DNA of 33,545 bases from Bacteroidales bacterium (GTDB lineage Bacteria; Bacteroidota; Bacteroidia; Bacteroidales; UBA7960). The notes beneath the pieces were generated by a model. That model was not told the origin of the DNA and did no database searches. It saw only the letters and a list, made by a program, of their open reading frames with translations. Location of the stretch: the NCBI GenBank assembly GCA_007132585.1, contig SLOJ01000187.1:1-33545 (forward strand). Reading direction: 5' to 3'. Below, one piece after another: positions 8,321 to 26,391 of this stretch. How positions within the stretch are numbered: the stretch's first letter is position 1; each line of letters starts with the position of its first letter. Both the position numbers and the translations under genes were made by a program.

Positions 8321-10015
8321 TCAGTCAGCTTCATAAAGTTTTACATTATCAACCCTGAAGGTACCAGTATTTCCCTGAGGGGCAGCACTTACATATTTCC
8401 ATGCAATATGCACTATCCCAGAATAAGAAGAAAGATCAATAAGGCCTGAATGTATCCACGCATTATCTGCATCACTTTGTCCTGCTAAAACAGCATCAAG
8501 TGTTTGCCAGTCAGCATCAGTAACATTTTCCCCATCAAAATTGGTTGAAATATGCAGGCTGAAACCATCGTGTGTATAAAAAGCTTTGGCCGACTCAAAC
8601 TCAAAAGTTGGATTGGTCATGGCATCTAAATCAATTGGCGGAGTAATCATCCACATGATATTTTGCGCGTCAGCTGAATTATATGCTGTAGCCTGTGCAT
8701 AATGATTATCCTGGTAGGTACGGCATATCCAGTTTCTTGAGCCGGCTTCTGCATATGCTGTCCAGCCATTATCATCAATAATATCATGATCCGGGTAGGA
8801 TTGAAAGTCTTCGTCAATAAAAGTAACTGGATCTGGTAGATCAGGGTCATCAGGATCATCGTCATCTTCCATCCAGTAATCTGAAGTGTCTCTCATGCCC
8901 GGCACACCGAAGTAGGCCGCAAGATTTCCTTTGAGTTTTACAGAAACTCCAAGTCTCTGCGGATTATCCACCAGATTAAGGGCTACCCGCGGGCTGCTTC
9001 CGAAAGGCAACTGAACAATGAGTGCATTGTTCATATTGGTTTCATCAGGATCATCGGCAATAATAATGTTGGAATTGGTGCTGAATGGTGCTGTAAAGCT
9101 GGGTTCAAATGGGTCAACTGAGGTTTCCATAACACCGATAATATATCCTTGTACCCAAATATCATTACCTGAATTGTTGTTGTATGCATATGCAATGTTG
9201 TAGGGGTCATCAAAAGTGCCGGAGCCACTTTCACCGGTATCTATCACACACCTGTCATTTGCCATAGTAAGCTCATTGGGGTCACGCACATATAATTGCC
9301 ATACATCACCAAACTGGCCCACAATGCCAATAAAACTTCCGTTGCCTTCGGGCAGTATTTCGTTGGCAAAATCGGCATAACCACTGGTTCTTACTATAAT
9401 GGTATTGTTATCGCAATCCTGCAGGGTGCGGTTAACGCTATTGAGGTTTATGGCATCGGCCCAGGTTTCACCAAGTTCGTTTTCAAGAAATTGCACATTG
9501 TTAATCTGAACCAGTTGTGCCTGGTATCCGCCGGCTTTAATCTCATTAATGGTAAGTACTTTAGGTTCTATAAACTTTTCTTCAGCCTGTTTTACAATTT
9601 GTTTGGTTCCATCAACCGAATCGAGTTGAAGCATATTGTTGAAATAACTTATAGATGCACCATCAAGCGAAAGACGAATGGAGTCACCCACTGTCAAGTT
9701 AGCACTCACAGCCATGCGCAGGTTAATTGCACCGGTAGGATCCTGGATATATGCCTGACGATATATATTGCCGTTACGTTGATCCATGGTTACAGTGGCA
9801 AAAAGTTGGGTGCCAGTATTGTGAAAAGTATAGGTTTCGCCCGGCACGATCATTTCCCTGATATCACCCAGGTTAATAATATCATCAGGGTTAATGCTTT
9901 CTATGGGAGGTATGTCTGTATCATCTTTTGTACATGAAACAAAGGCGAATACAAAAAGCAAACCTGCCCCGATAAAATTTCTGAAATTATTCATATTGAT
10001 TGATATAGTTTTCAT
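8321..10015 (-). CDS. Lipoprotein with DUF5689 (OB-like), DUF6359-like and choice-of-anchor J domains
   Basis: 564 aa. Lipobox-like FVFAFVSC. DUF5689-type block (MDQRNGNIYRQAYIQDPTGAINLRM...NMLQLDSV). GSGTFDDPYNIAYAYNNNSGNDIWVQGYIIG (DUF6359-like). C-terminal EDFQSYPD...WMITPPIDL...FRVDNVKLYE (choice-of-anchor J). Confidence 0.82.
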   Translation of the reverse strand: MKTISINMNNFRNFIGAGLLFVFAFVSCTKDDTDIPPIESINPDDIINLGDIREMIVPGETYTFHNTGTQLFATVTMDQRNGNIYRQAYIQDPTGAINLRMAVSANLTVGDSIRLSLDGASISYFNNMLQLDSVDGTKQIVKQAEEKFIEPKVLTINEIKAGGYQAQLVQINNVQFLENELGETWADAINLNSVNRTLQDCDNNTIIVRTSGYADFANEILPEGNGSFIGIVGQFGDVWQLYVRDPNELTMANDRCVIDTGESGSGTFDDPYNIAYAYNNNSGNDIWVQGYIIGVMETSVDPFEPSFTAPFSTNSNIIIADDPDETNMNNALIVQLPFGSSPRVALNLVDNPQRLGVSVKLKGNLAAYFGVPGMRDTSDYWMEDDDDPDDPDLPDPVTFIDEDFQSYPDHDIIDDNGWTAYAEAGSRNWICRTYQDNHYAQATAYNSADAQNIMWMITPPIDLDAMTNPTFEFESAKAFYTHDGFSLHISTNFDGENVTDADWQTLDAVLAGQSDADNAWIHSGLIDLSSYSGIVHIAWKYVSAAPQGNTGTFRVDNVKLYEAD

Positions 10016-10026
10016 TTATTACTTTT

Positions 10027-12015
10027 TTATTCTTCAATATCATCCAGATTTCTCATAAGTACCTGGGGTGCATTGAAGTAAGATGCAATAGCGGTAAGAG
10101 TAACAGGAACCTGGGGCAATGATTCATTTGCAAAAGTGGCATCGTTCCGGGTAAACATAATGATATTACCGGTACCGTCGTTTACAGTTCTTTCACCCTG
10201 GAAGTTACTGCCTCCTGTTATGGTAGCATTAGAAATTTGTACAAGTGTCGATTCAAATGACTCCAAATTGTCAAGCAGGTTTTCTATAGTAGTTTCAACG
10301 GGTTCAACTGAAACGTTGCTTTGCTGCACAAAGGCATTACCATTGGGAATATTATTTATTTGCAAAAGCCCATTAAATAATGAGATCTCTGCAGTACCAA
10401 TGTGTATTTTTACCTCATCACCAAGATTAAGATCATGATTTGAGAGAAATCTCACAACAATACCTGCCGTTTCATCCTGAATAACCATGTTTCTGCCTGT
10501 AATGTTTTCGTTATCCTTATCTGATATAACAACACCTTCTATCTCAGCTCCTGCAGGAGCTGAAGATGCCCCTTCGTTAAATAGTTGTCTGATTTGAGCA
10601 ATGGTATAAAGATTCTCTTCTCCCGGATCGTAGTCGTCAACAAATTCAAGGTCATCAAGGCTTCTAAGTAATAGTTGTACCTGGTTAAAATATGATGCAA
10701 TAGCGGTAATATTATAAACGCCTGGTGTTACAGGAGTATTTGCGAAACTTGCATAACTGTAAGTGTACATTATCGCTTCATCTGTATCATCACTGATGAT
10801 AATGTTTCCGTTAAAAGTACCGGCAGGAGGGATGACAACATTTTCTATATGAATCAATGTTGATTCGTAATCGTCAAAATTGTTTTTAAGTTCAGCAATT
10901 GTTAAAGTCTGGGGTTCAGGTATTACTCCATCACCCAAAACAACGCCATTTCCAAGGGGGATATCACTGATTTGCAATAATCCGTTAAAACGCGATATAG
11001 GCAGGCTGCCTGCCAGAATACGCAGCTGATCACCCAGATCAAAGTCGTGGAATGCCGCAAAACGAATTGCGAGGCCATCGCCATTTTCATCCATAATATA
11101 TAGGTTCTGTCCCGGGTGGTTATCATGTTCTCTGTCTGATATAACTACCCCTTCGAGTCTTCTGTTGGGTGGTACTGTTGTTGTACCCTGATCAAAGAGT
11201 TCTTTGATCTCGGCAATGGTTATTGGATCCATGTCTTCCCCGGGAACAGGACATCTTTCATCATCGAGCATAACTTCATCAATGCTCCTGATATACAATT
11301 GCCTGTCGTCGCGAAACTGCGCCAGGATAGCTATAATGCTCCCATTCCCTTCAGGTAACATTTCATCAGCAAAGTTTGCATAACCACTGGTTCTTACAAT
11401 AATCTGGTTACCGTCGCAATCCTTCAAAATACGGTTATGAGCAACAAGGTTTTCGCCATCGGCAAAAGTTTTTTCCAGTTCACCGGAATGAAATTCTACA
11501 TTTTCCAGTTTAATAAGTCTGGCCTGGTAAGATGGATCAGAAAGTAATGTATTGATATTGGTAACTTCCGGCTCCATCTCAACCATGGTGCCCAGTTTTT
11601 CAATACGGTTACCTACGTGCACTGAATCTATCTGCAACATATTTTCATATGCTCCCAGTGTGCTGCCTTTAAGATTGATGCGCACAGAGTCACCCTGATA
11701 AAGCCCCCCCGGCGACATAAGCCGCAGGTTTATGGCTGCAGTTTCATCTTCCAGAAACGCACTGCGATAAATATTACCTGAGGTGGCATCCATGGTTATT
11801 ACACCGAATATCGTAATATCCTCAGTAAACTTAATGGGTTCATTGCCTCCGGCAACAAATATTTGTCGCAGATCGGCAATGGTGTGCACCTCTCCGATGG
11901 GAATATCCAGAGGATCGGGTGCTTCGAAATCTTTGTCAACACAAGCTGTTATCAACAAGGCCCCTGCCAGCAGGATAGCGATCTTTTTGATGGTAGTCTT
12001 TATATTTCGGATCAT
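10027..12015 (-). CDS. Lipoprotein with three DUF5689-like units
   Basis: 662 aa. Lipobox ALLITAC. Three blocks starting TIADLRQIF, TIAEIKELFDQG and TIAQIRQLFNEG, each with (E)GVxx.../...N(G/M)LLQI. Confidence 0.82.
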   Translation of the reverse strand: MIRNIKTTIKKIAILLAGALLITACVDKDFEAPDPLDIPIGEVHTIADLRQIFVAGGNEPIKFTEDITIFGVITMDATSGNIYRSAFLEDETAAINLRLMSPGGLYQGDSVRINLKGSTLGAYENMLQIDSVHVGNRIEKLGTMVEMEPEVTNINTLLSDPSYQARLIKLENVEFHSGELEKTFADGENLVAHNRILKDCDGNQIIVRTSGYANFADEMLPEGNGSIIAILAQFRDDRQLYIRSIDEVMLDDERCPVPGEDMDPITIAEIKELFDQGTTTVPPNRRLEGVVISDREHDNHPGQNLYIMDENGDGLAIRFAAFHDFDLGDQLRILAGSLPISRFNGLLQISDIPLGNGVVLGDGVIPEPQTLTIAELKNNFDDYESTLIHIENVVIPPAGTFNGNIIISDDTDEAIMYTYSYASFANTPVTPGVYNITAIASYFNQVQLLLRSLDDLEFVDDYDPGEENLYTIAQIRQLFNEGASSAPAGAEIEGVVISDKDNENITGRNMVIQDETAGIVVRFLSNHDLNLGDEVKIHIGTAEISLFNGLLQINNIPNGNAFVQQSNVSVEPVETTIENLLDNLESFESTLVQISNATITGGSNFQGERTVNDGTGNIIMFTRNDATFANESLPQVPVTLTAIASYFNAPQVLMRNLDDIEE

Positions 12016-12073
12016 TATTTCAGTTTTTTCTGTTGTATAATTTAAGTGATCTGTATGGCTTGTATGCTAAATT

Positions 12074-14641
12074 TTACATCCTGAAAGCCAGGTTGATGAA
12101 AAATGTTCTGCCGTATAAATAAAAGTATTTTGGCGGGAATCGGTCAATGTCATTACTGTCGTACCGGAGTTGTTCGAATCCGCCGATACGGAAGTCGGTA
12201 TTATCGAGCACATTGCTGATACTTACATTCAGGTTTATAAAATACTTTCTTTGAATTCTCCATGACTTACCACCGAAAATATCAAGCGTAAAAGCGTTCT
12301 CCAGTTTTTTCTGGTTAATGATATCTCTCCAGCCCGGGTCGGTATCTACAAAATTTGCCAAAGCTTCTTCGGTGCGGCGATCAGGGTTAATGTCAAGATA
12401 GATATCGTCAAAGTAGTTTAGGTTTGTACCTATAAACCAATAGCGTGGTGAGTTGTATCTCATTCCTACAGATGCAGCGGTATGGGTCATGCCTCCCACT
12501 TTAAAATTTTCCCAATACACGGTTTTTTCTTCGGCGAGGAGTTCTCTGTCGTTATCACGTGTAATGGTAACGGTGGGGCGGCTTGAATAGATATAATCAC
12601 CCAATCCTCCAACCAGCGACATAGAAAGGGTAGATGTAAGATTGATATCCATTCCCAGTTCGGCACCCATATGGGTTTGGTCAACGCCTGACATGCTGTA
12701 GTTTACAAACGTACGGAACTCTTCATGGTAGAAGCTTCTGCTCCAGGTTTTATCGCGGAATTCGGTATAAAAGAGAGTAAGCCTTGATTTTACAGTGGGC
12801 GTACGTACAATATAACTCAAATCTCCACTCATAATTTTTTCACTATTCAGCACGGGAATAAGATCGTCACGCACTCTCGATGAAATGTATGCATTTCTGA
12901 AAAAGGGTGCACGGGTAAGGTATGCGGCATTACCGGTAAAGTAATGGCGACCGGTGAGCTTAAAGGTAGTACCGGCTTTTAAACCGAAATTGGTAAAATT
13001 CTGTTTTTCACTGTCGCCCAAAGAGTTCTCGGGGAAACGACCGTTTTGCATATGGCCTGTTCGCCAGAATGTGGTTTGTGAAAGATTTCCGGCTACAAAG
13101 AAGTCCCACCGGGGCAATACCCATTCAGCCTGAACAAAAGCTTGATATTCATTGATATTGCCGGTAAAGTCATAGCCGAACCTGTCACCTTCTGTTACCA
13201 GCCGGTTGGGGTTCTGCAGGTCATTTTGAGCAAAATCTTCATCGGTGGCATCCCTGAGTGCAAATTGGTCAATATCTACCCACCAATCACCACCCAAAAG
13301 GTCATCAACAAGTTTGTACTGATGGGTTTTGGCCAGTGAAATATTGATGCCTCCGCTTAGGTGGGTCTGAGGGTTTAGCTGTGCATTGGCAAAGGAGTTA
13401 AACACAAACTGATCGCGGTCATTGCGGCGATCCTCCACCATAAATTTGGAGCGCAATCCTTCAATACTATTTCCGGCAATGCCATCCACATCGGTTTGTG
13501 TAAAAAGATTTTTCATGTTGTACTGGTACATGAGATCCCAGTTCAGTTGTCCAAAGTTTTCATTGTTTTGCCAAAGATCGGTATACAGGTTGAACAGGTG
13601 TGGATCATCGGCATAAAAACTCGGGAGGTAACGATAGTAGTCGGGCCTTGGATCATGGCCTTCAAACTGGCCGGGAAATGGTTTCTCACCATCAAACCAG
13701 TTGAGTGCCGTTGAACTTCCTTTTCCGAATGTATAGGCCGCGGATGTTTGTATATTAACCTGCGGTGTGGGATCATAGTAATGGCTGAAGATGATCCATG
13801 GAGAGTGATAGTTGTTGATCCGGGAGTTTCTGACTTCACCATTTTGAATCCCCCAGTTGGGGTTGTAATAGTTGTTTCCGGTCAGGTCATATGCTTCCTG
13901 TGTTGAAACCCCGGGTCTGCCGGTTTGTGAAGGTGCGCCGAAAGCAATAAGCCCGAGGCTGTGCTGGTCATTGATCTTTCTTTCGGCCGATAAAAAGTAA
14001 GCCCATGCATCATAAAATGTTCCTTCAACAAACCCTTGCCCCATTTGTGCAAGCCTTCTTGAGCCGCTTAGTGTGAGAGCCCATCCGTTTTCCTGCATTC
14101 CTGTTGCATGGGTAAACATTGCACGATGGGCATAGCTGCGGTTTGAATTGGAGTAAGTAAGCCGTGTATTAGGGCTATATTGTGAAGCCCGTGTGGTAAT
14201 ATTGGTTGCTCCCCCAATACCGCTGAATTTCTCGCGCGATACTCCTATTCCGCTATGGGTAACTGTCATACGTGTAGCATCATTAAGTCCACCCCAGTTG
14301 GAATAAAATGCCCTGCCGGTTTCAGGATCGTTCACAGGAATACCGTTTATCATAACCAAAGTATTTTCATTGTCATACCCTCTTATGCGGTAACGTGCCT
14401 GGCCAAAGGTAAAACCTGCCGTGGATACATATATATCACGTGAGCCCTGCAACAGACTTGATATGTCGTATGATTCCGCATCTCCTTCAATATCTTCAAT
14501 ACTGATTACAGGGAGATCAAACTCGGGCCTTTCAGGCTCTTCGATGGTATCGTTAACCGCAGTTTCTTCTGTGGTTTGCGCCCAAAGCACAGTTGCTGAA
14601 AGAACCATGCAAACAGTTAAAATGCTTGGAATTTTATTCAT
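12074..14641 (-). CDS. TonB-dependent outer-membrane receptor
   Basis: 855 aa. Signal peptide; plug-like QARYRIRGYDNENTLVMINGIPVNDPETGRAFYSNWGGL; many amphipathic beta strands; C-terminal YGRTFFINLAFRM ending in an aromatic-rich strand. Confidence 0.9.
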   Translation of the reverse strand: MNKIPSILTVCMVLSATVLWAQTTEETAVNDTIEEPERPEFDLPVISIEDIEGDAESYDISSLLQGSRDIYVSTAGFTFGQARYRIRGYDNENTLVMINGIPVNDPETGRAFYSNWGGLNDATRMTVTHSGIGVSREKFSGIGGATNITTRASQYSPNTRLTYSNSNRSYAHRAMFTHATGMQENGWALTLSGSRRLAQMGQGFVEGTFYDAWAYFLSAERKINDQHSLGLIAFGAPSQTGRPGVSTQEAYDLTGNNYYNPNWGIQNGEVRNSRINNYHSPWIIFSHYYDPTPQVNIQTSAAYTFGKGSSTALNWFDGEKPFPGQFEGHDPRPDYYRYLPSFYADDPHLFNLYTDLWQNNENFGQLNWDLMYQYNMKNLFTQTDVDGIAGNSIEGLRSKFMVEDRRNDRDQFVFNSFANAQLNPQTHLSGGINISLAKTHQYKLVDDLLGGDWWVDIDQFALRDATDEDFAQNDLQNPNRLVTEGDRFGYDFTGNINEYQAFVQAEWVLPRWDFFVAGNLSQTTFWRTGHMQNGRFPENSLGDSEKQNFTNFGLKAGTTFKLTGRHYFTGNAAYLTRAPFFRNAYISSRVRDDLIPVLNSEKIMSGDLSYIVRTPTVKSRLTLFYTEFRDKTWSRSFYHEEFRTFVNYSMSGVDQTHMGAELGMDINLTSTLSMSLVGGLGDYIYSSRPTVTITRDNDRELLAEEKTVYWENFKVGGMTHTAASVGMRYNSPRYWFIGTNLNYFDDIYLDINPDRRTEEALANFVDTDPGWRDIINQKKLENAFTLDIFGGKSWRIQRKYFINLNVSISNVLDNTDFRIGGFEQLRYDSNDIDRFPPKYFYLYGRTFFINLAFRM

Positions 14642-14776
14642 AAAATATTTTTTGAATTAAAATGTAAATCTGGTTAAAGTTATAAAGAATTGATAATAAA
14701 AAACTTTTAACATCTGAGTGCTTCTTATGATGTTTTTTACGTTACGAAAATAAGTTCCTTATTGTCTTAAAATGAT

Positions 14777-14784
14777 TATTTTTG
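14777..14784 (+). promoter_or_regulatory. Possible Bacteroidota -7 box (TATTTTTG) upstream of the nuclease gene
   Basis: Matches TAnnTTTG, but no good -33 TTG at normal spacing. Confidence 0.3.
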
Positions 14785-14934
14785 GGGCATCAAAAATACA
14801 TAATTCTTTATAATTAAGACTTCTTTAAAAGTTAAAAGAATATAGCAATACAATTATAAAGGTTATTTTGCATTTCTAATAAAAAAATTATGTATAAAGG
14901 GAACAATTCATTCAAAAATAAAAAGGAAATAATA

Positions 14935-15996
14935 ATGTATTTTATTCGATTAACAACAGCAGGTATAGCAATGATTTTCTTTTACCTGTTTACAGGAATA
15001 TATCTTTCTTACGGACAGCAGAACGACAAACAGTTTCTTGCTGTTTGTGTAGCATATTATAATGTTGAGAACCTTTTTGATACCATAAATGATCCTGATC
15101 GTAATGATGATGATTTTACCCCTGAAGGATCTAACCGCTGGACATCTGAAAGATATTATGAAAAACTTGACCGGCTGGCTGAAGTCATTTCAAAACTGGG
15201 TCTCGAAATAACCCCCGATGGCCCTGCAGTTATAGGCCTGAGTGAGGTTGAAAATGAAGAAGTGGTTCAGGACCTGGCTCGCCAGGAGCGCATCAAAGAC
15301 CGCAATTACCAGGTTATACATTACCGCAGTCCTGACCGACGCGTTGATAATGCTTTTATGTACAATCCAAAGTATTTCGAGGTTACCAATACCAAACCCG
15401 TGCCCACCATTGTCCCCGGCAGGCCCGATTTTCGCACCCGCGATCAGTTGGTTGTCTCGGGTTTAATGCTTGGCGAACCTATGCACTTTATCGTGGTGCA
15501 CTGGCCTTCGCGAAGAGGGGGTGAAGCCCGAAGCCGACCCCTGCGGATTGCAGCAGCCGATATTGCCAGGTCAATTATTGACTCCCTCAAGACCGAAGAT
15601 CCCGATGCAAAAGTCATTTTTATGGGCGACCTTAATGATGACCCCACCGATATTAGTGTAAAAAGACATTTAGACGCTCATGGTGATAAAAATAAACTGG
15701 AAGAAGGGCAACTGTACAATCCGTTTGTTGAATTTGCCCGCAGAGGAATTGGTACTCTGGCATGGCGTGATTCATGGAACCTCTTCGACCAGATAATCCT
15801 TACCCAGTCATTACTGGGCGATGACTACAGCACCTTTAAATATCACCGGGCTGAAGTGTTCAACAGACCTTTCCTGCGTCAACCTTCAGGAAGGTTCCAG
15901 GGGTATCCTTTCAGAAGTTATGGGGGTGGTGTTTACCTTGGCGGGTATAGCGACCACTTTCCCACTTATGTATTTTTAATCCGTGAAATAAATTGA
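14935..15996 (+). CDS. Secreted endonuclease/exonuclease/phosphatase (EEP) family protein
   Basis: Motifs YNVENLFD, GLSEVEN, VVHWPSRRGG, FMGDLNDDP, DQIIL, GYSDHFP. Start moved from 14890 to the ATG at 14935, which gives a cleaner signal peptide (MYFIRLTTAGIAMIFFYLFTGIYLSYG). Confidence 0.88.
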   Translation: MYFIRLTTAGIAMIFFYLFTGIYLSYGQQNDKQFLAVCVAYYNVENLFDTINDPDRNDDDFTPEGSNRWTSERYYEKLDRLAEVISKLGLEITPDGPAVIGLSEVENEEVVQDLARQERIKDRNYQVIHYRSPDRRVDNAFMYNPKYFEVTNTKPVPTIVPGRPDFRTRDQLVVSGLMLGEPMHFIVVHWPSRRGGEARSRPLRIAAADIARSIIDSLKTEDPDAKVIFMGDLNDDPTDISVKRHLDAHGDKNKLEEGQLYNPFVEFARRGIGTLAWRDSWNLFDQIILTQSLLGDDYSTFKYHRAEVFNRPFLRQPSGRFQGYPFRSYGGGVYLGGYSDHFPTYVFLIREIN

Positions 15997-16002
15997 TTTG
16001 CC

Positions 16003-16323
16003 ATGCCTAAAACCATTATTTCCAAGCTTCAGGAGAATCCCAATTTTTTGAGAGCATCCAACAGACGGCCCAAAAGGAAAAAAGTGAAGTACAAACAGCT
16101 CACTTTTAAAATTACAGAAGGACAGAAAAAAGCACTTGAGGTAATGTGTAAACGGCAAAAAACAACTCCTATCAGGTATCTGAAAGCCTTGGTAAATAAT
16201 CAAACTGCCAGGTATAAAGCTGATCCGCAGCCGGTAAGCTATGTTACTGAAAACCAGCTGCAACTCTTTGATCTTGAGAAAGAATCAGTAAACATTCCTA
16301 AAAAAAAGAAAACGATACCATAA
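16003..16323 (+). CDS. Small basic protein, ribbon-helix-helix-like
   Basis: 106 aa, starts 6 bp after the nuclease stop. Core KQLTFKITEGQKKALEVMCKRQKTTPIRYLKALVNNQ resembles a beta-alpha-alpha RHH layout; lysine-rich. Confidence 0.7.
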   Translation: MPKTIISKLQENPNFLRASNRRPKRKKVKYKQLTFKITEGQKKALEVMCKRQKTTPIRYLKALVNNQTARYKADPQPVSYVTENQLQLFDLEKESVNIPKKKKTIP

Positions 16324-16345
16324 TAATTTTGTAAGAGATTATTAG

Positions 16346-16377
16346 AGCCTGTAGCCGTTAATGGTTACAGGCTTTTT
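16346..16377 (+). terminator. Rho-independent terminator
   Basis: AGCCTGTAGCC gttaat GGTTACAGGCT then TTTT. Confidence 0.85.
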
Positions 16378-16543: not shown

Positions 16544-19021
16544 ATGTTGCTTGTATCTCTGCATACATTGAGTTTTGTCATTTATGATCTGGCATTGATC
16601 ATATTTGTTCTATCCGCCGTTTTTTTTCTCCAGCTATTGTGGTATTATTTAGTATATGAAAATATAGAAATACTTCACAAAACAAAGGGAAGGTTATCGC
16701 AATTACATAAGGAGAATAAAGGGAAGAAATCAATTTTTGAAGAAATACCTGATAACACATATCGTGAATTCTCTGAGATGCTTCCCGAGATAGTTTATCA
16801 ATGCGATCAAAACGGAAAACTGCTGTTTACAAATAAGGCTGGGTTAAACATTCTTGGCATTACAACAGATGATATAAAATCGGGTATAAATGTTTTTGAT
16901 TTTATTCATAAGGATGACCTTAGGGATGCAGAATTTCTTTTAAAAACAAATTATTCGTATGATGAGCCCATCGATAACGAATACAGGATTGTTACACGAA
17001 AGGGAGAAATCAGAAATATTCTGGCTTATACGATGCCTGTTTTTAATCAAAACGGTGATTATACAGGTATTCGTGGCCTTGCTGTGGATATCTCGCAACG
17101 AAAAAAGAATGAAGACACACTGCATATCCTTCAGGATATTGTATCGAATATGAAACTTGGTTTAAATGTGTTTAGGGCCGATGATCCTGACAATCCATCT
17201 GCGTTCAGACTGGAAATCGTAAATGAAGCGGCAGGCAAATTAATGCGGTTCTTTTCCCAGGCAAATATTGGAAAAACCATTGACGAACTTTCACCAATAA
17301 TTAGAAAAAACAGGTTGCACAATATCTTTTTCAATGTGGTGAAAACCCAGACTCCCTCAGAGATAGAAGAATTTGTTTATCAGCCTGATGCAAAGAAAAC
17401 TGCGTTGATTTTTAATCTTAAGATTTATCCCCTACCGGCCTATAGAGTGGCTATGTTTATTGAAGATGTTACTCCCAAGAAAAATACGGAAGCTACACTC
17501 AAAATGACCCGGTTTGGTATTGAAAATGCCGGTGACCTTATTCTCTGGATTGATGAAAATGCCGATATTACCTTCGCTAACCAAACAGCTTCAGTTCAAT
17601 ACGGCTTTTCAAAAGAAGACCTGTTGAAAATGAGTTTGCCTGAAATCGATACCCGTATAACAGCCATGCAATGGTATGAACTTGTTCAAATACTTGAAAC
17701 AAAGCATTCCATTACCATGGAGTCTATACACAAAACCAGGAGCGGAAAAACGTTTCCTGTTGAATTATCAATTAATAAAGTAATTTATGAAGGCAAAAAG
17801 CAATACTTCGCTTTTGTGAGAGACATAAAAGAAAGAAACCTTAATATTGAACTGGAACAAAAAATCCAGATAGCCCGCAAATCTGCTGCACTTAAGCAAC
17901 AATTTCTTGCCAACATGAGTCATGAGATCCGTACGCCTATGACCGGTATTATGGGTATGACGTCTTTACTCATGCGAAGCAATCTCAGCCTTCCGCAACA
18001 GGAATATGTCCGTAACATCAAAATCTCATCTGAAAACCTTCTGAACATTATAAATGACGTTCTTGATCTGAGTAAAATTGAAGCCGGTAAGATGGAACTT
18101 AAACCCACGCGCATTGTGGTTGCAGAATTCGTGAACCAGATCAGGGAAATGTTTCAGCATCAGGCTGAAAGAAATGAATTAAAATTGTCAACATCCATTG
18201 ACCCGAGAGTCCCCGGAGTAATATTTGTTGACGACAACAGATTAAAGCAACTTATCAATAACCTGATGTCTAATGCCTTTAAATTTACAGATGATGGCGA
18301 GGTGGGTATCAGTTTTGGATTAAAAGAAAAACATGATGATTATATTTTACTTTCCTGCGAAGTGAAAGATACAGGAATGGGTATAAGCCAAAAGAATCAA
18401 AAACAAATTTTTGAGAAATTTACACAGATTGACTCATCACTTATAAGACCATTTGAAGGAACAGGTCTGGGACTCGCCATTTGTCGCGAACTAACCACAC
18501 TCATGGGTGGAGATATTAAAGTAGACAGTGAACTCGGCAAGGGTAGTACCTTTACTTTCACATTCCGTGCCGGTTATGATAAAAGTGATGATCAAAAGCC
18601 TGTTGATATCTCTCCCGGAGAGTTGAAAGATTTAAATCTTAATGTGCTGCACGTTGAAGATAAACTATTGAATCAAAAAGTAGTGGGATTTATTCTGATC
18701 AATGCCGGTTGTAATGTCGACTTTCTTACCAATGGCAAAGATGCAGTTGAAAAATATGAACCGGGGAAGTATGATATCATTCTTATGGATATCCAGATGC
18801 CGGTTATGGATGGTATTTCAGCCTATAAAGAACTAAAAAAGCTGCATGGCTCAAAGTTATGCCCTGTGATTGGCCTTAGTGCCAATGCCCTTGAAGGAGA
18901 TGCTGAGAAATTTATGGAAATGGGCCTTGATGATTATATTGCCAAACCTTTTAAACCACAGCAGCTTTACGAAAAGGTTGTCCAATGGTCGGGTAAAATA
19001 TCAGGACAAAAAGAAAATTAA
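16544..19021 (+). CDS. Hybrid sensor histidine kinase (TM, PAS domains, HisKA, HATPase, C-terminal receiver)
   Basis: 825 aa. FLANMSHEIRTPMTGIMGM (H-box), GTGLGLAICRELTTLMGGDIKVDSELGKGSTFTFTF (G2), receiver YDIILMDIQMPVMDG and PVIGLSANAL...DDYIAKPF. Confidence 0.96.
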   Translation: MLLVSLHTLSFVIYDLALIIFVLSAVFFLQLLWYYLVYENIEILHKTKGRLSQLHKENKGKKSIFEEIPDNTYREFSEMLPEIVYQCDQNGKLLFTNKAGLNILGITTDDIKSGINVFDFIHKDDLRDAEFLLKTNYSYDEPIDNEYRIVTRKGEIRNILAYTMPVFNQNGDYTGIRGLAVDISQRKKNEDTLHILQDIVSNMKLGLNVFRADDPDNPSAFRLEIVNEAAGKLMRFFSQANIGKTIDELSPIIRKNRLHNIFFNVVKTQTPSEIEEFVYQPDAKKTALIFNLKIYPLPAYRVAMFIEDVTPKKNTEATLKMTRFGIENAGDLILWIDENADITFANQTASVQYGFSKEDLLKMSLPEIDTRITAMQWYELVQILETKHSITMESIHKTRSGKTFPVELSINKVIYEGKKQYFAFVRDIKERNLNIELEQKIQIARKSAALKQQFLANMSHEIRTPMTGIMGMTSLLMRSNLSLPQQEYVRNIKISSENLLNIINDVLDLSKIEAGKMELKPTRIVVAEFVNQIREMFQHQAERNELKLSTSIDPRVPGVIFVDDNRLKQLINNLMSNAFKFTDDGEVGISFGLKEKHDDYILLSCEVKDTGMGISQKNQKQIFEKFTQIDSSLIRPFEGTGLGLAICRELTTLMGGDIKVDSELGKGSTFTFTFRAGYDKSDDQKPVDISPGELKDLNLNVLHVEDKLLNQKVVGFILINAGCNVDFLTNGKDAVEKYEPGKYDIILMDIQMPVMDGISAYKELKKLHGSKLCPVIGLSANALEGDAEKFMEMGLDDYIAKPFKPQQLYEKVVQWSGKISGQKEN

Positions 19022-22440: not shown

Positions 22441-22515
22441 GGTGGATGTAGCTCAGCAGGTTAGAGCATCAGATTGTGGTTCTGAGGGTCGTGGGTTCGA
22501 GTCCCATCTTCCACC
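22441..22515 (+). tRNA. tRNA-His (anticodon GTG)
   Basis: Cloverleaf folded by hand: acceptor GTGGATG/CTTCCAC with G-1 (22441) opposite C73 (22515), D-stem GCTC/GAGC, anticodon stem TCAGA/TCTGA with loop TTGTGGT (GTG at 22476-22478), T-arm GTGGG TTCGAGT CCCAT. CCA not encoded. Confidence 0.96.
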
Positions 22516-22530
22516 CAAAAAAATCAACCC

Positions 22531-22749: not shown

Positions 22750-25700
22750 ATGAAGGCATTTGTACAATTCATTTCATTGCCCTTTTTTCTGGCAATTTTC
22801 TGGAGCGCATCCGGCTTTGCGCAAATTATCCCTGAACCATATAAACCGGGGACAGAACAGCAGGAGAAGGCTGAATTACAACTTAAAAATGTTGAAGATA
22901 TCATATGGTACGAAGACTTCAACGAAGGTTTACCGGGAGATTGGGATAATATAGATGCTTCAGGTCTGGTATCTTTTGAATATACTTTTGCAGGACCACA
23001 GGGCCCGTTTTCAATTGGCATGCCTGCTTTGCATTCGGTAACCTCATCCAATGGTTTTATGATTCTGGATACCGACCTTGCCACGTCGCAAAACCCCGAT
23101 GGTTTGTTTTCCGATGCATGGATACAATCGCCTCCGATCGATTTGAGCGAATATGAAAGAATACAGTTGCGTTTTCAGCATAACTACAGGTATTGTTGTT
23201 CGCCGGCGCAGGTTGAAATGGTAGCTGAAGTTAGTACCGATGGCGAAAACTGGACAAGCTGGGATGTTCGTAACGGACTTGCTCCAAACAATACCAGTGC
23301 CAATCCTGTAAACCAGGTTATTAATATTTCGCATGTGGCCGCCGGGCAAGATCAGGTTTGGATACGTTTCCGCAAAACCGGTGCAACGCACTACTGGTGG
23401 ATGATTGATGATGTAATGCTGGTGTCTTATGTCGATAACGACATGGAAATCAAGAATATAACCTATAATAACGGATATACTAAAATTCCTGCAGGCCAGC
23501 AGCAGCCCTTTCAGTTTTCTGCTGAAATACGCAATGCCGGCGGGTTTGTACAAAACAATATAGTGCTTGAAACTGCTGTAAATAACCTGCTGTTCAATGC
23601 AACTACCGACACTATTGACGCTATGGACCCTGGTCAGCAACTGAAACTTATGCTTCCGGGTGAGTTTATGCCACCTTCCAGGGGAAAGTATACGGCAGAA
23701 TTTGTATTATCACAAATGCAGATTGATGAAGTGCCTGCCAACAACCTTGCAACAGCTGAGTTTTTTATTACCGATACGGTTTACTCCCGCTCACTTGATG
23801 TTTACAATCCCGAAATGTATTATTCTGGGGAAGCAGGAGATCTGACCGCAGGAAATCGCTTCAGTTTGCTCAGTGAGATGGGAGCCACTTCGGTGGGTTT
23901 TGTTTTGCACGAAAACTCCGAACCGGGGGCCCGGTTGAAAATTAAACTTTACAGCTATACCGATAGTAGTTTTACCGAAATATATGAATCAAATGATTTT
24001 TATATACTCACAGCTGATGATATAACACCTGCAGATTCAGAAGAGCCTGTATTTCTTGTTCTTCCCCTGGATGAAACTTTAATTATGCCTGCCGGCGATT
24101 ATATTGTGGCCGCCCATGCACCTGCAGGAGATCAGGTGGTGCTTGCCTCCCAGAATCTTGTAAAGCAATCTGCTTCTGCAGCATTTGAATTTGCAGATAA
24201 CAGCTGGAATGAGCTGGCTATAGTTCCCATGATCAATCTGCATTTTGGTAACCATGAAGTAGCATGCGACCCATTGTATGACTTTATTGTTCAGGATGCA
24301 GTTTGTGGCACTGAAAGTGGTTCTATCGAAGTGGTTCCCCTAAGCGGAACGGGTCCGTGGAGTTACCTTTGGGATGATGATCCAATGCTGAATTCACCCA
24401 TTCGAGAAAACCTGCCTGCCGGTGATTACGAAGTTACCGTAACCGACGGATATGGTTGCCTTGCCGATCTTTCTGTTACTGTTGAAGATGTGGATATCAG
24501 TATGGATTTTGAAATAACAGATGCCATGTGTGCCACCGATGGTGTTATTACCATGATTCCGCTCAATGGCCAGGAACCTTTTGTGTATGAATGGTCGCAT
24601 GACGAAACCCTTGACGGACCGGTAGCTGAAGAACTTGCACCGGGAAGTTATAACGTTATTATTGCCGATGCCAACGGTTGCGAAACCAATATAACAGTAG
24701 AAGTAGGAAATATTGATGAGATGCCTGTTGATGTTTTTGCCCAGTCAGCATATTGCGGAAATGCCAATGGAAGCATAGAACTTGTGCCCCAGGCCGGCGT
24801 GGCTCCATTTACTTTTGATTGGGAAGGATTTGATACAAGTACTAACGGGTTACTGGATAACCTTACTGCCGGACATTATACTTTTTCAGTTACTGATGAT
24901 AATGGCTGTTTCTATGAAGGCGATGTTATCATTTCTGAAGAAATATACGACCTTGAGTTGGATTATACTGTTTCTGATGCCACTTGCGGACTGCATAATG
25001 GTGAGATCGTAGTGGAAATTACCAATGGCAGCGAACCTTATAATTTTCAATGGTCGAACAGTCTGGATCAGCCTGCTATCGGTAATCTTGCACCCGGAAA
25101 CTATGTTCTGCAGGTTGCAGACCAGTTTGGTTGTGATACAGAGCAAAGTTTTATTATAAACAGCATAGGAGAAATGCCGCTGGTCAACTGGGGTGTTACC
25201 GATTCTGATAATTGCGGTGGTAATTCAGGAGTTATTGCTATTTATTCACAGGATCCCCAGGCAACATACCTCTATACCCTTATCAATGATAAAAACGGAG
25301 TTATAGTTGAAAATCCAGGTGGTGGTGATGATTCACCCGACTTTTTGGTGGAAGAACTTCCTGCGGGGCAATTCCTGATCAGTGTGCTAAGTGAAGATGG
25401 ATGCGAAAAAATTCTAACACTCGAAGTCAGCGATGCAGGTGCACCCGAAATAACTGCCAATCTCAAAAGTATCAGCTGTCATGGCGAAAATGACGGGGCA
25501 ATACAAGTTACTGTAAATGGAGGAGCTAATCCGCAATTTCTCTGGAATGATGAAAATGAAAGCACTACACCCGAAATCAACAATCTTTCTGCCGGGCTTT
25601 ATACCCTGCAGGTTACCGATGATGGTTGTTTCGGAATGGAATCCTTTGAAATTACTGAGCCTGCACCTCTTCTGGCCAATGCTACTATCGAACATATAGT

Positions 25701-26391
25701 TTGTGCCAATGATGAACAGGGAAGCATTTACCTGCAAACCCTTGGAGGCACTGCTCCCTATACCTATATCTGGAACAATGGGGTTTCTAACCTGAATCTG
25801 GTTAATATTCAGGGTGGAGATTACACAATTACCATAACCGATTTCCATAATTGCATATTTAACAATTCATACACTGTAAATACCAACGATTCGCTTATAA
25901 TGGATGCTGATATTATTCACAGCAATGAGGGGTCTGACAACGGTAGTATCATTGTAAGTGTAAGCGGAGGTGGGGGTGAATATACCTACTCGTGGGATAG
26001 CGGCCAGCAAACTCCTGTTCTTACAGGTCTGGCGCCCGGTTCATACACTATTACCGTTACCGATGAGGCAGGATGCTTCATCACGGAAACCTTTATGATT
26101 GGAACCGTAAATGTAGAAAGTGATCTTACTGCTGAAGAAGCAGTGAAGGTTTATCCAAACCCAGCCAGTCAGGTTCTTTATGTGGAAACTACGGCCGGTT
26201 TTTGCACAGAAGCTGGTATAAGCGTTGATATTACCAATATAGTCGGCAAAAATGTAAAAAGCCTTTACTTTGATAATACCGGTGGCGCTGAAAAAATAAA
26301 TATTGATGTTGGCGATATGTATCCCGGAATTTATATTATTACTGTAAAATGTGGTAATAAGGTGAAACAATCAAAATTTGTAAAAAGATAA
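22750..26391 (+). CDS. T9SS-secreted protein with choice-of-anchor J domain and about eight SprB-type repeats
   Basis: 1213 aa. Signal peptide; EDFNEGLPGDW...WMIDDVMLV; repeated LxxGxYxVxVTDxxGC units; C-terminal VKVYPNPASQVLYVE...GIYIITVKCGNKVKQSKFVKR (T9SS type A sorting domain). Confidence 0.92.
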   Translation: MKAFVQFISLPFFLAIFWSASGFAQIIPEPYKPGTEQQEKAELQLKNVEDIIWYEDFNEGLPGDWDNIDASGLVSFEYTFAGPQGPFSIGMPALHSVTSSNGFMILDTDLATSQNPDGLFSDAWIQSPPIDLSEYERIQLRFQHNYRYCCSPAQVEMVAEVSTDGENWTSWDVRNGLAPNNTSANPVNQVINISHVAAGQDQVWIRFRKTGATHYWWMIDDVMLVSYVDNDMEIKNITYNNGYTKIPAGQQQPFQFSAEIRNAGGFVQNNIVLETAVNNLLFNATTDTIDAMDPGQQLKLMLPGEFMPPSRGKYTAEFVLSQMQIDEVPANNLATAEFFITDTVYSRSLDVYNPEMYYSGEAGDLTAGNRFSLLSEMGATSVGFVLHENSEPGARLKIKLYSYTDSSFTEIYESNDFYILTADDITPADSEEPVFLVLPLDETLIMPAGDYIVAAHAPAGDQVVLASQNLVKQSASAAFEFADNSWNELAIVPMINLHFGNHEVACDPLYDFIVQDAVCGTESGSIEVVPLSGTGPWSYLWDDDPMLNSPIRENLPAGDYEVTVTDGYGCLADLSVTVEDVDISMDFEITDAMCATDGVITMIPLNGQEPFVYEWSHDETLDGPVAEELAPGSYNVIIADANGCETNITVEVGNIDEMPVDVFAQSAYCGNANGSIELVPQAGVAPFTFDWEGFDTSTNGLLDNLTAGHYTFSVTDDNGCFYEGDVIISEEIYDLELDYTVSDATCGLHNGEIVVEITNGSEPYNFQWSNSLDQPAIGNLAPGNYVLQVADQFGCDTEQSFIINSIGEMPLVNWGVTDSDNCGGNSGVIAIYSQDPQATYLYTLINDKNGVIVENPGGGDDSPDFLVEELPAGQFLISVLSEDGCEKILTLEVSDAGAPEITANLKSISCHGENDGAIQVTVNGGANPQFLWNDENESTTPEINNLSAGLYTLQVTDDGCFGMESFEITEPAPLLANATIEHIVCANDEQGSIYLQTLGGTAPYTYIWNNGVSNLNLVNIQGGDYTITITDFHNCIFNNSYTVNTNDSLIMDADIIHSNEGSDNGSIIVSVSGGGGEYTYSWDSGQQTPVLTGLAPGSYTITVTDEAGCFITETFMIGTVNVESDLTAEEAVKVYPNPASQVLYVETTAGFCTEAGISVDITNIVGKNVKSLYFDNTGGAEKINIDVGDMYPGIYIITVKCGNKVKQSKFVKR

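Follow-up and report, generated by a model that had tools for sequence, protein, structure and literature searches.

How does DNA cross the outer membrane of Bacteroidota? In Proteobacteria, the type IV pilus, PilQ and ComEA bring DNA across this membrane for ComEC; in Bacteroidota the crossing is not established, knowledge from the duck-associated Riemerella anatipestifer being limited to the fact that two genes are required. The question is raised by a locus within a stretch of 33,545 nucleotides (contig SLOJ01000187.1 of assembly GCA_007132585.1, a draft genome of 257 contigs; hereafter the window) from a Bacteroidales bacterium of the UBA7960 lineage. Open reading frames (ORFs) and profile searches place on its minus strand the gene of a TonB-dependent receptor (TBDR; 12074-14641), followed over 12074-8321 by two DUF5689 lipoprotein genes and, divergently from these, the gene of an exported PF19580 enzyme of the EEP superfamily (14890-15996, plus strand). 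We propose that this locus probably serves natural transformation as an outer-membrane module for DNA uptake, of the type that genetics has defined in R. anatipestifer. An earlier interpretation, made from the letters alone (the sequence-only reading), had described the same ORFs, coordinates and divergent layout, all of which are borne out by our ORF positions and domain searches, and had seen in them a system scavenging extracellular DNA or phosphate.

Kinship with the transformation genes of Riemerella

In R. anatipestifer, transposon and markerless mutants alike show RA0C_RS04915 (receptor-like, PF13620) and RA0C_RS04920 (DUF5689 and DUF5017, choice-of-anchor J) to be indispensable to natural transformation, which the markerless deletion of either gene brings below detection (PMC8459023). 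The window receptor, a protein of 855 aa with a Plug domain (31.5 bits versus a cut-off of 23.9) and a proposed outer-membrane DNA channel, is an ortholog of RA0C_RS04915 by BLAST (E 8e-137, 33% over 864 aa; global alignment: 36% identity over 822 aa). Beside it, in the same direction, lies a DUF5689/choice-of-anchor J lipoprotein gene (8321-10015, minus strand), whose product combines DUF5689, DUF6359 and choice-of-anchor J domains (Pfam, NCBIfam) and matches the R. anatipestifer lipoprotein by BLAST (E 1e-24). It is the downstream one of two lipoprotein genes 11 bp apart, the other (10027-12015, minus strand) encoding three DUF5689 domains (profile match 361 bits) and, as we propose, a surface receptor for DNA. 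The EEP enzyme also matches that of R. anatipestifer (E 2e-81), and the window genome contains both comEC and dprA.

The resemblance extends to gene order. R. anatipestifer CCUG25054 (L126) and R. columbina DSM 16469 (L127) each carry an EEP gene on the minus strand, then the divergent TBDR and DUF5689 genes on the plus strand. In a close relative of the former (L114), comEC comes first, followed by a 145-aa gene, a carboxyl-transferase gene, EEP and then the divergent receptor and DUF5689 lipoprotein genes; in L116 and L126 too, the carboxyl-transferase gene, a 145/140-aa gene and comEC come beyond EEP. The L114 order corresponds to that of locus tags RS04895 (ComEC), 04900, 04905, 04910, 04915 and 04920, with one tag per gene, and the domains agree with those published (PF13620 on the receptor; DUF5689 and DUF5017 on the lipoprotein). 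Because the gene order fits and the published study has RS04910 upstream of RS04915, the Riemerella EEP would, by position, be RA0C_RS04910, which served there solely as the upstream transcription control for RS04915, the EEP itself not being a test subject (PMC8459023). Indeed, we found neither a test of EEP function nor a mention of PF19580 in the open-licence PMC literature. Mutants of tonBA and tonBB in R. anatipestifer are also reduced in transformation, which is what a gating role of the receptor would predict; one of the two lowers iron uptake as well (PMC8383284).

The window and R. anatipestifer loci thus share an orthologous TBDR and DUF5689/choice-of-anchor J lipoprotein in one transcription unit, with a divergent EEP in the same position. 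They differ in that the window has two lipoproteins, with the domain sets given above, a receptor without CarboxypepD_reg and no adjoining comEC.

Conservation of the module across Bacteroidia

The association of the EEP gene with the TBDR-DUF5689 pair, on which the sequence-only reading depended, is a conserved one. All 20 loci fetched from the order (L039-L058) have a DUF5689 gene downstream of the TBDR, and all 20 have a divergent EEP, an arrangement conserved far beyond chance. The corresponding figures are 17/17 and 14/17 in the phylum sample (148 genomes, 36 of them of the same class besides the window's own), and 12/12 and 11/12 in Weeksellaceae. Named contigs with a receptor were found by a lipoprotein search, so that the downstream DUF5689 lipoprotein is present in 76/76 by construction; this does not apply to the divergent EEP, present in 66/76, 7 of the remainder being cut by contig ends. 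Most loci of the class Bacteroidia keep the EEP gene back to back with the TBDR-DUF5689 pair while the flanking genes change, the window's flanks (MscS channel, hybrid kinase) being kept in its own genus only.

The same link appears when whole genomes are compared. With a presence threshold of >600 bits (next-best score 296), the TBDR occurs in 21 of the 24 EEP-positive and in none of the 12 EEP-negative genomes of the class (Fisher p about 4e-7, uncorrected for kinship). Full-length TBDR orthologs are 62-86% identical throughout the window's own genus and family, and about 39-50% identical in several other families of the order. The 2021 study placed the receptor in Flavobacteriaceae, with homologs in Flavobacterium (PMC8459023). 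The module is deeply conserved, and the pair is ancient, reaching well beyond Flavobacteriaceae.

This spread also separates the locus from the SusC-SusD importers of Bacteroidota, with which it has in common a TonB-dependent receptor and co-encoded lipoproteins. A nutrient importer of this kind was rejected, as neither lipoprotein has a SusD domain (Pfam, NCBIfam), a lack already noted from the letters alone. Moreover, the receptor matches no SusC family, and the lipoproteins are of the DUF5689 (OB) type, with a near-core distribution throughout the class.

A second TBDR, paralogous to the window receptor (approx. 26-37% identity) and bearing CarboxypepD_reg, was found in the window's own genome (L059, contig C4) and in L060, L062 and L063, most relatives having one; its downstream gene, of approximately 440 aa, has no Pfam match. 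This paralog (e.g. L060) was set aside as a part of the module, its downstream gene being without DUF5689. Contig C4 also encodes part of a DUF5689 protein that bears a type IX tail. In another locus (L071), the EEP, receptor and DUF5689 genes are co-directional in a run continued by a peptidase M3 gene, and directly upstream of the run lies a gene combining BACON with a DNA/RNA non-specific endonuclease (PF01223; 4947-6122, plus strand).

The joint conservation of DNA-import machinery and a nuclease-like enzyme could also suit nutrition: lipoproteins and receptor would import DNA or oligonucleotides, which the EEP would degrade in the periplasm for phosphate, carbon or nucleosides, transformation in Riemerella being a by-product or a co-opted use. 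The endonuclease added to the L071 run fits such a role, as does the lack of known competence in most carriers, Flavobacterium johnsoniae having been found not competent. However, the near-core spread (lipoprotein in 113/120 Weeksellaceae) is unlike that of patchy nutrient loci, the annotated neighbours of the window locus (MscS channel, hybrid kinase, glycosyltransferase) include no nucleotide or phosphate genes, and the R. anatipestifer block sits with comEC. Furthermore, removal of phosphate acts oppositely in two Riemerella species, lowering transformation in R. anatipestifer (PMC8383284) and raising it in R. columbina, which is competent (PMC7965970). Import of DNA, as the sequence-only reading had it, is the likely activity of the locus, whereas its nutritional or phosphate purpose is not supported, as the R. 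anatipestifer orthologs are essential for transformation and the phosphate effects are inconsistent. We consider scavenging unlikely as an account of the locus, and transformation the likelier purpose.

Lipoproteins, EEP enzyme and ComEC

The DUF5689 domain is predicted to be a tandem OB fold, like those of nucleic-acid-binding proteins, in agreement with the OB-type lipoproteins of the sequence-only reading. In the AlphaFold model of the lipoprotein 8321-10015 (mean pLDDT 69.8), DUF5689 and the C-terminal domain are good and the stretch between them is poor. The best PDB match of this model is Teb1 AB, a tandem-OB telomerase subunit (E 6.5e-7), and HIN-200 is also among the matches (MNDA HIN/dsDNA, 3.5e-5); the TM-scores of these OB matches are low (0.35-0.42 by target length), so that they support the fold type and not the binding mode. 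Further matches to cleaved-adhesin, MAM and carbohydrate-binding-module folds are as expected for the C-terminal domain. One DUF5689 relative weakly matches a Pfam OB nucleic-acid-binding family. By analogy, the triple-DUF5689 lipoprotein (10027-12015) may hold up to six OB folds; a sequence search of solved structures with this protein and with the TBDR returned no informative relative. Elsewhere in the window genome (L068, contig C22, 1883-4159, minus strand), a protein of 758 aa with a type IX secretion tail joins DUF5689 and fn3 to two PLD-type nuclease/phosphodiesterase stretches, a fusion of DUF5689 to what may be a secreted nuclease.

The enzyme encoded at 14890-15996 belongs to the EEP/DNase-I-like superfamily by its PF19580 score (411 bits) and its conserved catalytic residues (N, E, H, D..N, D-H): N58, E119, H204, D247, N249, D355 and H356 are invariant in alignments of 32 and 41 sequences, and E121 is invariant as well. 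The structures nearest to its AlphaFold model (pLDDT 90) are those of TDP2, including TDP2-DNA, an enzyme that processes DNA ends; the model also resembles Nocturnin and neutral sphingomyelinase. With the extracellular nucleases ExeM/NucH (NF033681), the enzyme has the EEP superfamily in common; it differs in scoring 23 bits against their 300-bit cut-off, in being shorter and in having neither an OB region nor a surface/extracellular tail.

The enzyme of the window has a signal-type helix at its N-terminus, no lipobox and no type IX tail, and a hydrophobic N-terminus is found in 98% of 108 TBDR-adjacent EEPs, and in none of several flavobacterial paralogs away from the locus. From these features, the enzyme is most likely Sec-exported and periplasmic. 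The ‘secreted’ enzyme of the sequence-only reading is accordingly retained as to export and not as to a surface or extracellular location, and the cleavage of DNA before import that it had assigned to the enzyme is unlikely, since no surface-anchoring or type IX signal accompanies the Sec signal, though the genome has proteins with such tails. Several flavobacterial genomes (L077, L081, L095, L107, L108) have a second, signal-less EEP paralog, presumably cytoplasmic. Outside the class (L089, L104), an EEP-family gene is divergent to DNA polymerase I, with no DUF5689 receptor nearby.

Which step of transformation could require such an enzyme? The beta-lactamase-like domain of ComEC is the predicted competence nuclease (PMC5031224). 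Scanned with Pfam, none of nine Bacteroidia ComEC, including those of the window genome and R. anatipestifer, displayed the metallo-beta-lactamase domain Lactamase_B, found in 2/2 ComEC of f39 and f57, two other families of this phylum, as a positive control (loci examined: L069 4661-6802, minus strand, and L206-L234). As these ComEC have no recognizable nuclease domain, we propose the EEP as the supplier of the nuclease, a candidate for the missing strand-degrading activity. The proposed step, from double-stranded (ds) to single-stranded (ss) DNA, would be that performed by EndA of Streptococcus pneumoniae or by the ComEC nuclease domain (PMC5031224), whereas the folds differ: DNase-I-like for the EEP, whose activity is predicted, versus beta-beta-alpha-metal for EndA and metallo-beta-lactamase for ComEC.

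From these elements, we infer that the lipoproteins bind DNA directly, that DNA passes through the receptor and that the EEP has the role proposed above. The tandem-OB DUF5689 lipoproteins would capture dsDNA at the surface and pass it to the TBDR, whose plug would be opened by TonB-ExbBD energy, so that DNA enters the periplasm. There, the exported EEP would cut or degrade one strand, and ComEC would move the ssDNA into the cytoplasm, where DprA and RecA would act. The task would be that of the type IV pilus, PilQ and ComEA; unlike that system, the window locus has no pilus or secretin genes, and a TonB-energized receptor is proposed instead.

A different account is that the TBDR and lipoproteins import or sense another ligand and that the EEP has no connection with them, being a phosphodiesterase or phosphatase of the envelope, while R. 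anatipestifer loses transformation indirectly, through an envelope defect. Hydrolases of lipids and dinucleotides do belong to the EEP superfamily, and Nocturnin and neutral sphingomyelinase are among the fold matches. M949_1556 of R. anatipestifer, whose family model (lipo_M949_1556) is matched by the Riemerella lipoprotein, is described as affecting antigenicity and pathogenicity in a title cited in PMC12566107, and the acidity of the window lipoproteins also suits a ligand other than DNA. However, transformation in R. anatipestifer fell below detection, which is more than a reduction, the best fold matches of both lipoprotein and EEP are DNA-binding or DNA-processing proteins, and another protein of the genome has DUF5689 and a PLD-type domain in one chain. 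We regard this account as quite improbable.

Several observations nevertheless weigh against the assignment of the locus to transformation. With pI values of 4.05 and 4.17, both window lipoproteins are very acidic, which is unfavourable to direct DNA binding unless metal-bridged. They score 158 (8321-10015) and 95 bits on lipo_M949_1556 (NCBIfam NF052645; cut-off 475), versus about 590-600 bits for both R. anatipestifer lipoproteins, and on these scores are relatives of that narrow subfamily, not members. The CarboxypepD_reg domain, present in L074 and L114, is absent from the window receptor; it is present in the Riemerella receptor and not known to be required there. A general link to comEC was rejected, as comEC lies next to the module (within about 10 kb) only in Riemerella. 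Named Flavobacterium loci carry the module, yet F. johnsoniae is not competent in the laboratory; the locus is thus not sufficient for competence. Outside the class, EEP-family enzymes are found in the absence of the TBDR, one genome (G164) has the TBDR pair with only a signal-less EEP, and another (G191) has an exported EEP and no strong TBDR. Finally, the ComEC of EEP-negative Bacteroidia are also without a nuclease domain, so that a clean rule pairing the EEP one to one with loss of the ComEC nuclease was rejected. Owing to the acidic lipoproteins, the non-competent carriers, the lack of the Riemerella N-terminal receptor domain and the scores below the NCBIfam cut-off, we do not regard the window locus as the same machine as that of R. 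anatipestifer, but as a variant of its type.

Probable promoter, surroundings and implications

Between the EEP and receptor genes lies TATTTTTG-N6-CAAAAATA (14777-14798), composed of two symmetric -7 elements, one per strand (Bacteroidota consensus: TAnnTTTG). This symmetric element recurs in 14 of 15 same-family divergent regions (L039-L053), with a centre of 4-7 bases, mostly 6, against a background of 0.0047 per kb; it is lineage-specific, with one occurrence in about 90 other regions. Motif and family comparison point to a bidirectional promoter, which probably drives the EEP and receptor units from one place.

The EEP gene is followed after 6 bp by a gene for a small basic protein (16003-16323, plus strand; 106 aa, pI 10.4), conserved in the window's own family only and for this reason rejected as a core part of the module. 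Described as RHH-like in the sequence-only reading, it may be a DNA-binding protein of this type; profile support for the resemblance is weak, the best value being E 7.7e-4, obtained by one relative against PF10723 (RHH_9: E 0.016). Terminator-like stem-loops lie 3' of the lipoprotein genes (8262-8235, minus strand, with a T run) and 3' of the EEP/small-protein operon (16344-16375, plus strand, 14 pairs). These are the two longest stems of our search, in which such sites were not enriched over shuffles (10 found versus 9.1 expected). An anti-phage defence function was rejected, PADLOC giving no match for any of the five proteins. Further along the window, a PAS-containing hybrid histidine kinase gene (16544-19021, plus strand) adjoins the module throughout the genus and not in the other genera of the family, and the gene at 22750-26391 (plus strand), next to tRNA-His (22442-22516), encodes a large protein with SprB repeats and a type IX secretion tail.

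Beyond the already known requirement for two genes in R. anatipestifer, what is new here is the EEP as a conserved exported partner, the ComEC without recognizable nuclease domain and the EEP as candidate nuclease, the reach of the module beyond Flavobacteriaceae with multi-OB lipoproteins, and the conserved symmetric motif as a probable bidirectional promoter. More tentatively, transformation in Bacteroidia might rely on a DNA importer that is powered by TonB and independent of pili; a periplasmic EEP nuclease dedicated to this task, and co-expressed in this family via the symmetric promoter, would then replace the ComEC nuclease domain lacking in the class. Many communities of the gut and of aquatic habitats are dominated by Bacteroidota, which exchange genes in large numbers; to the outer-membrane step of DNA entry in these bacteria, the locus adds a conserved third component, the EEP, with a concrete candidate job, that of the missing strand-degrading nuclease.

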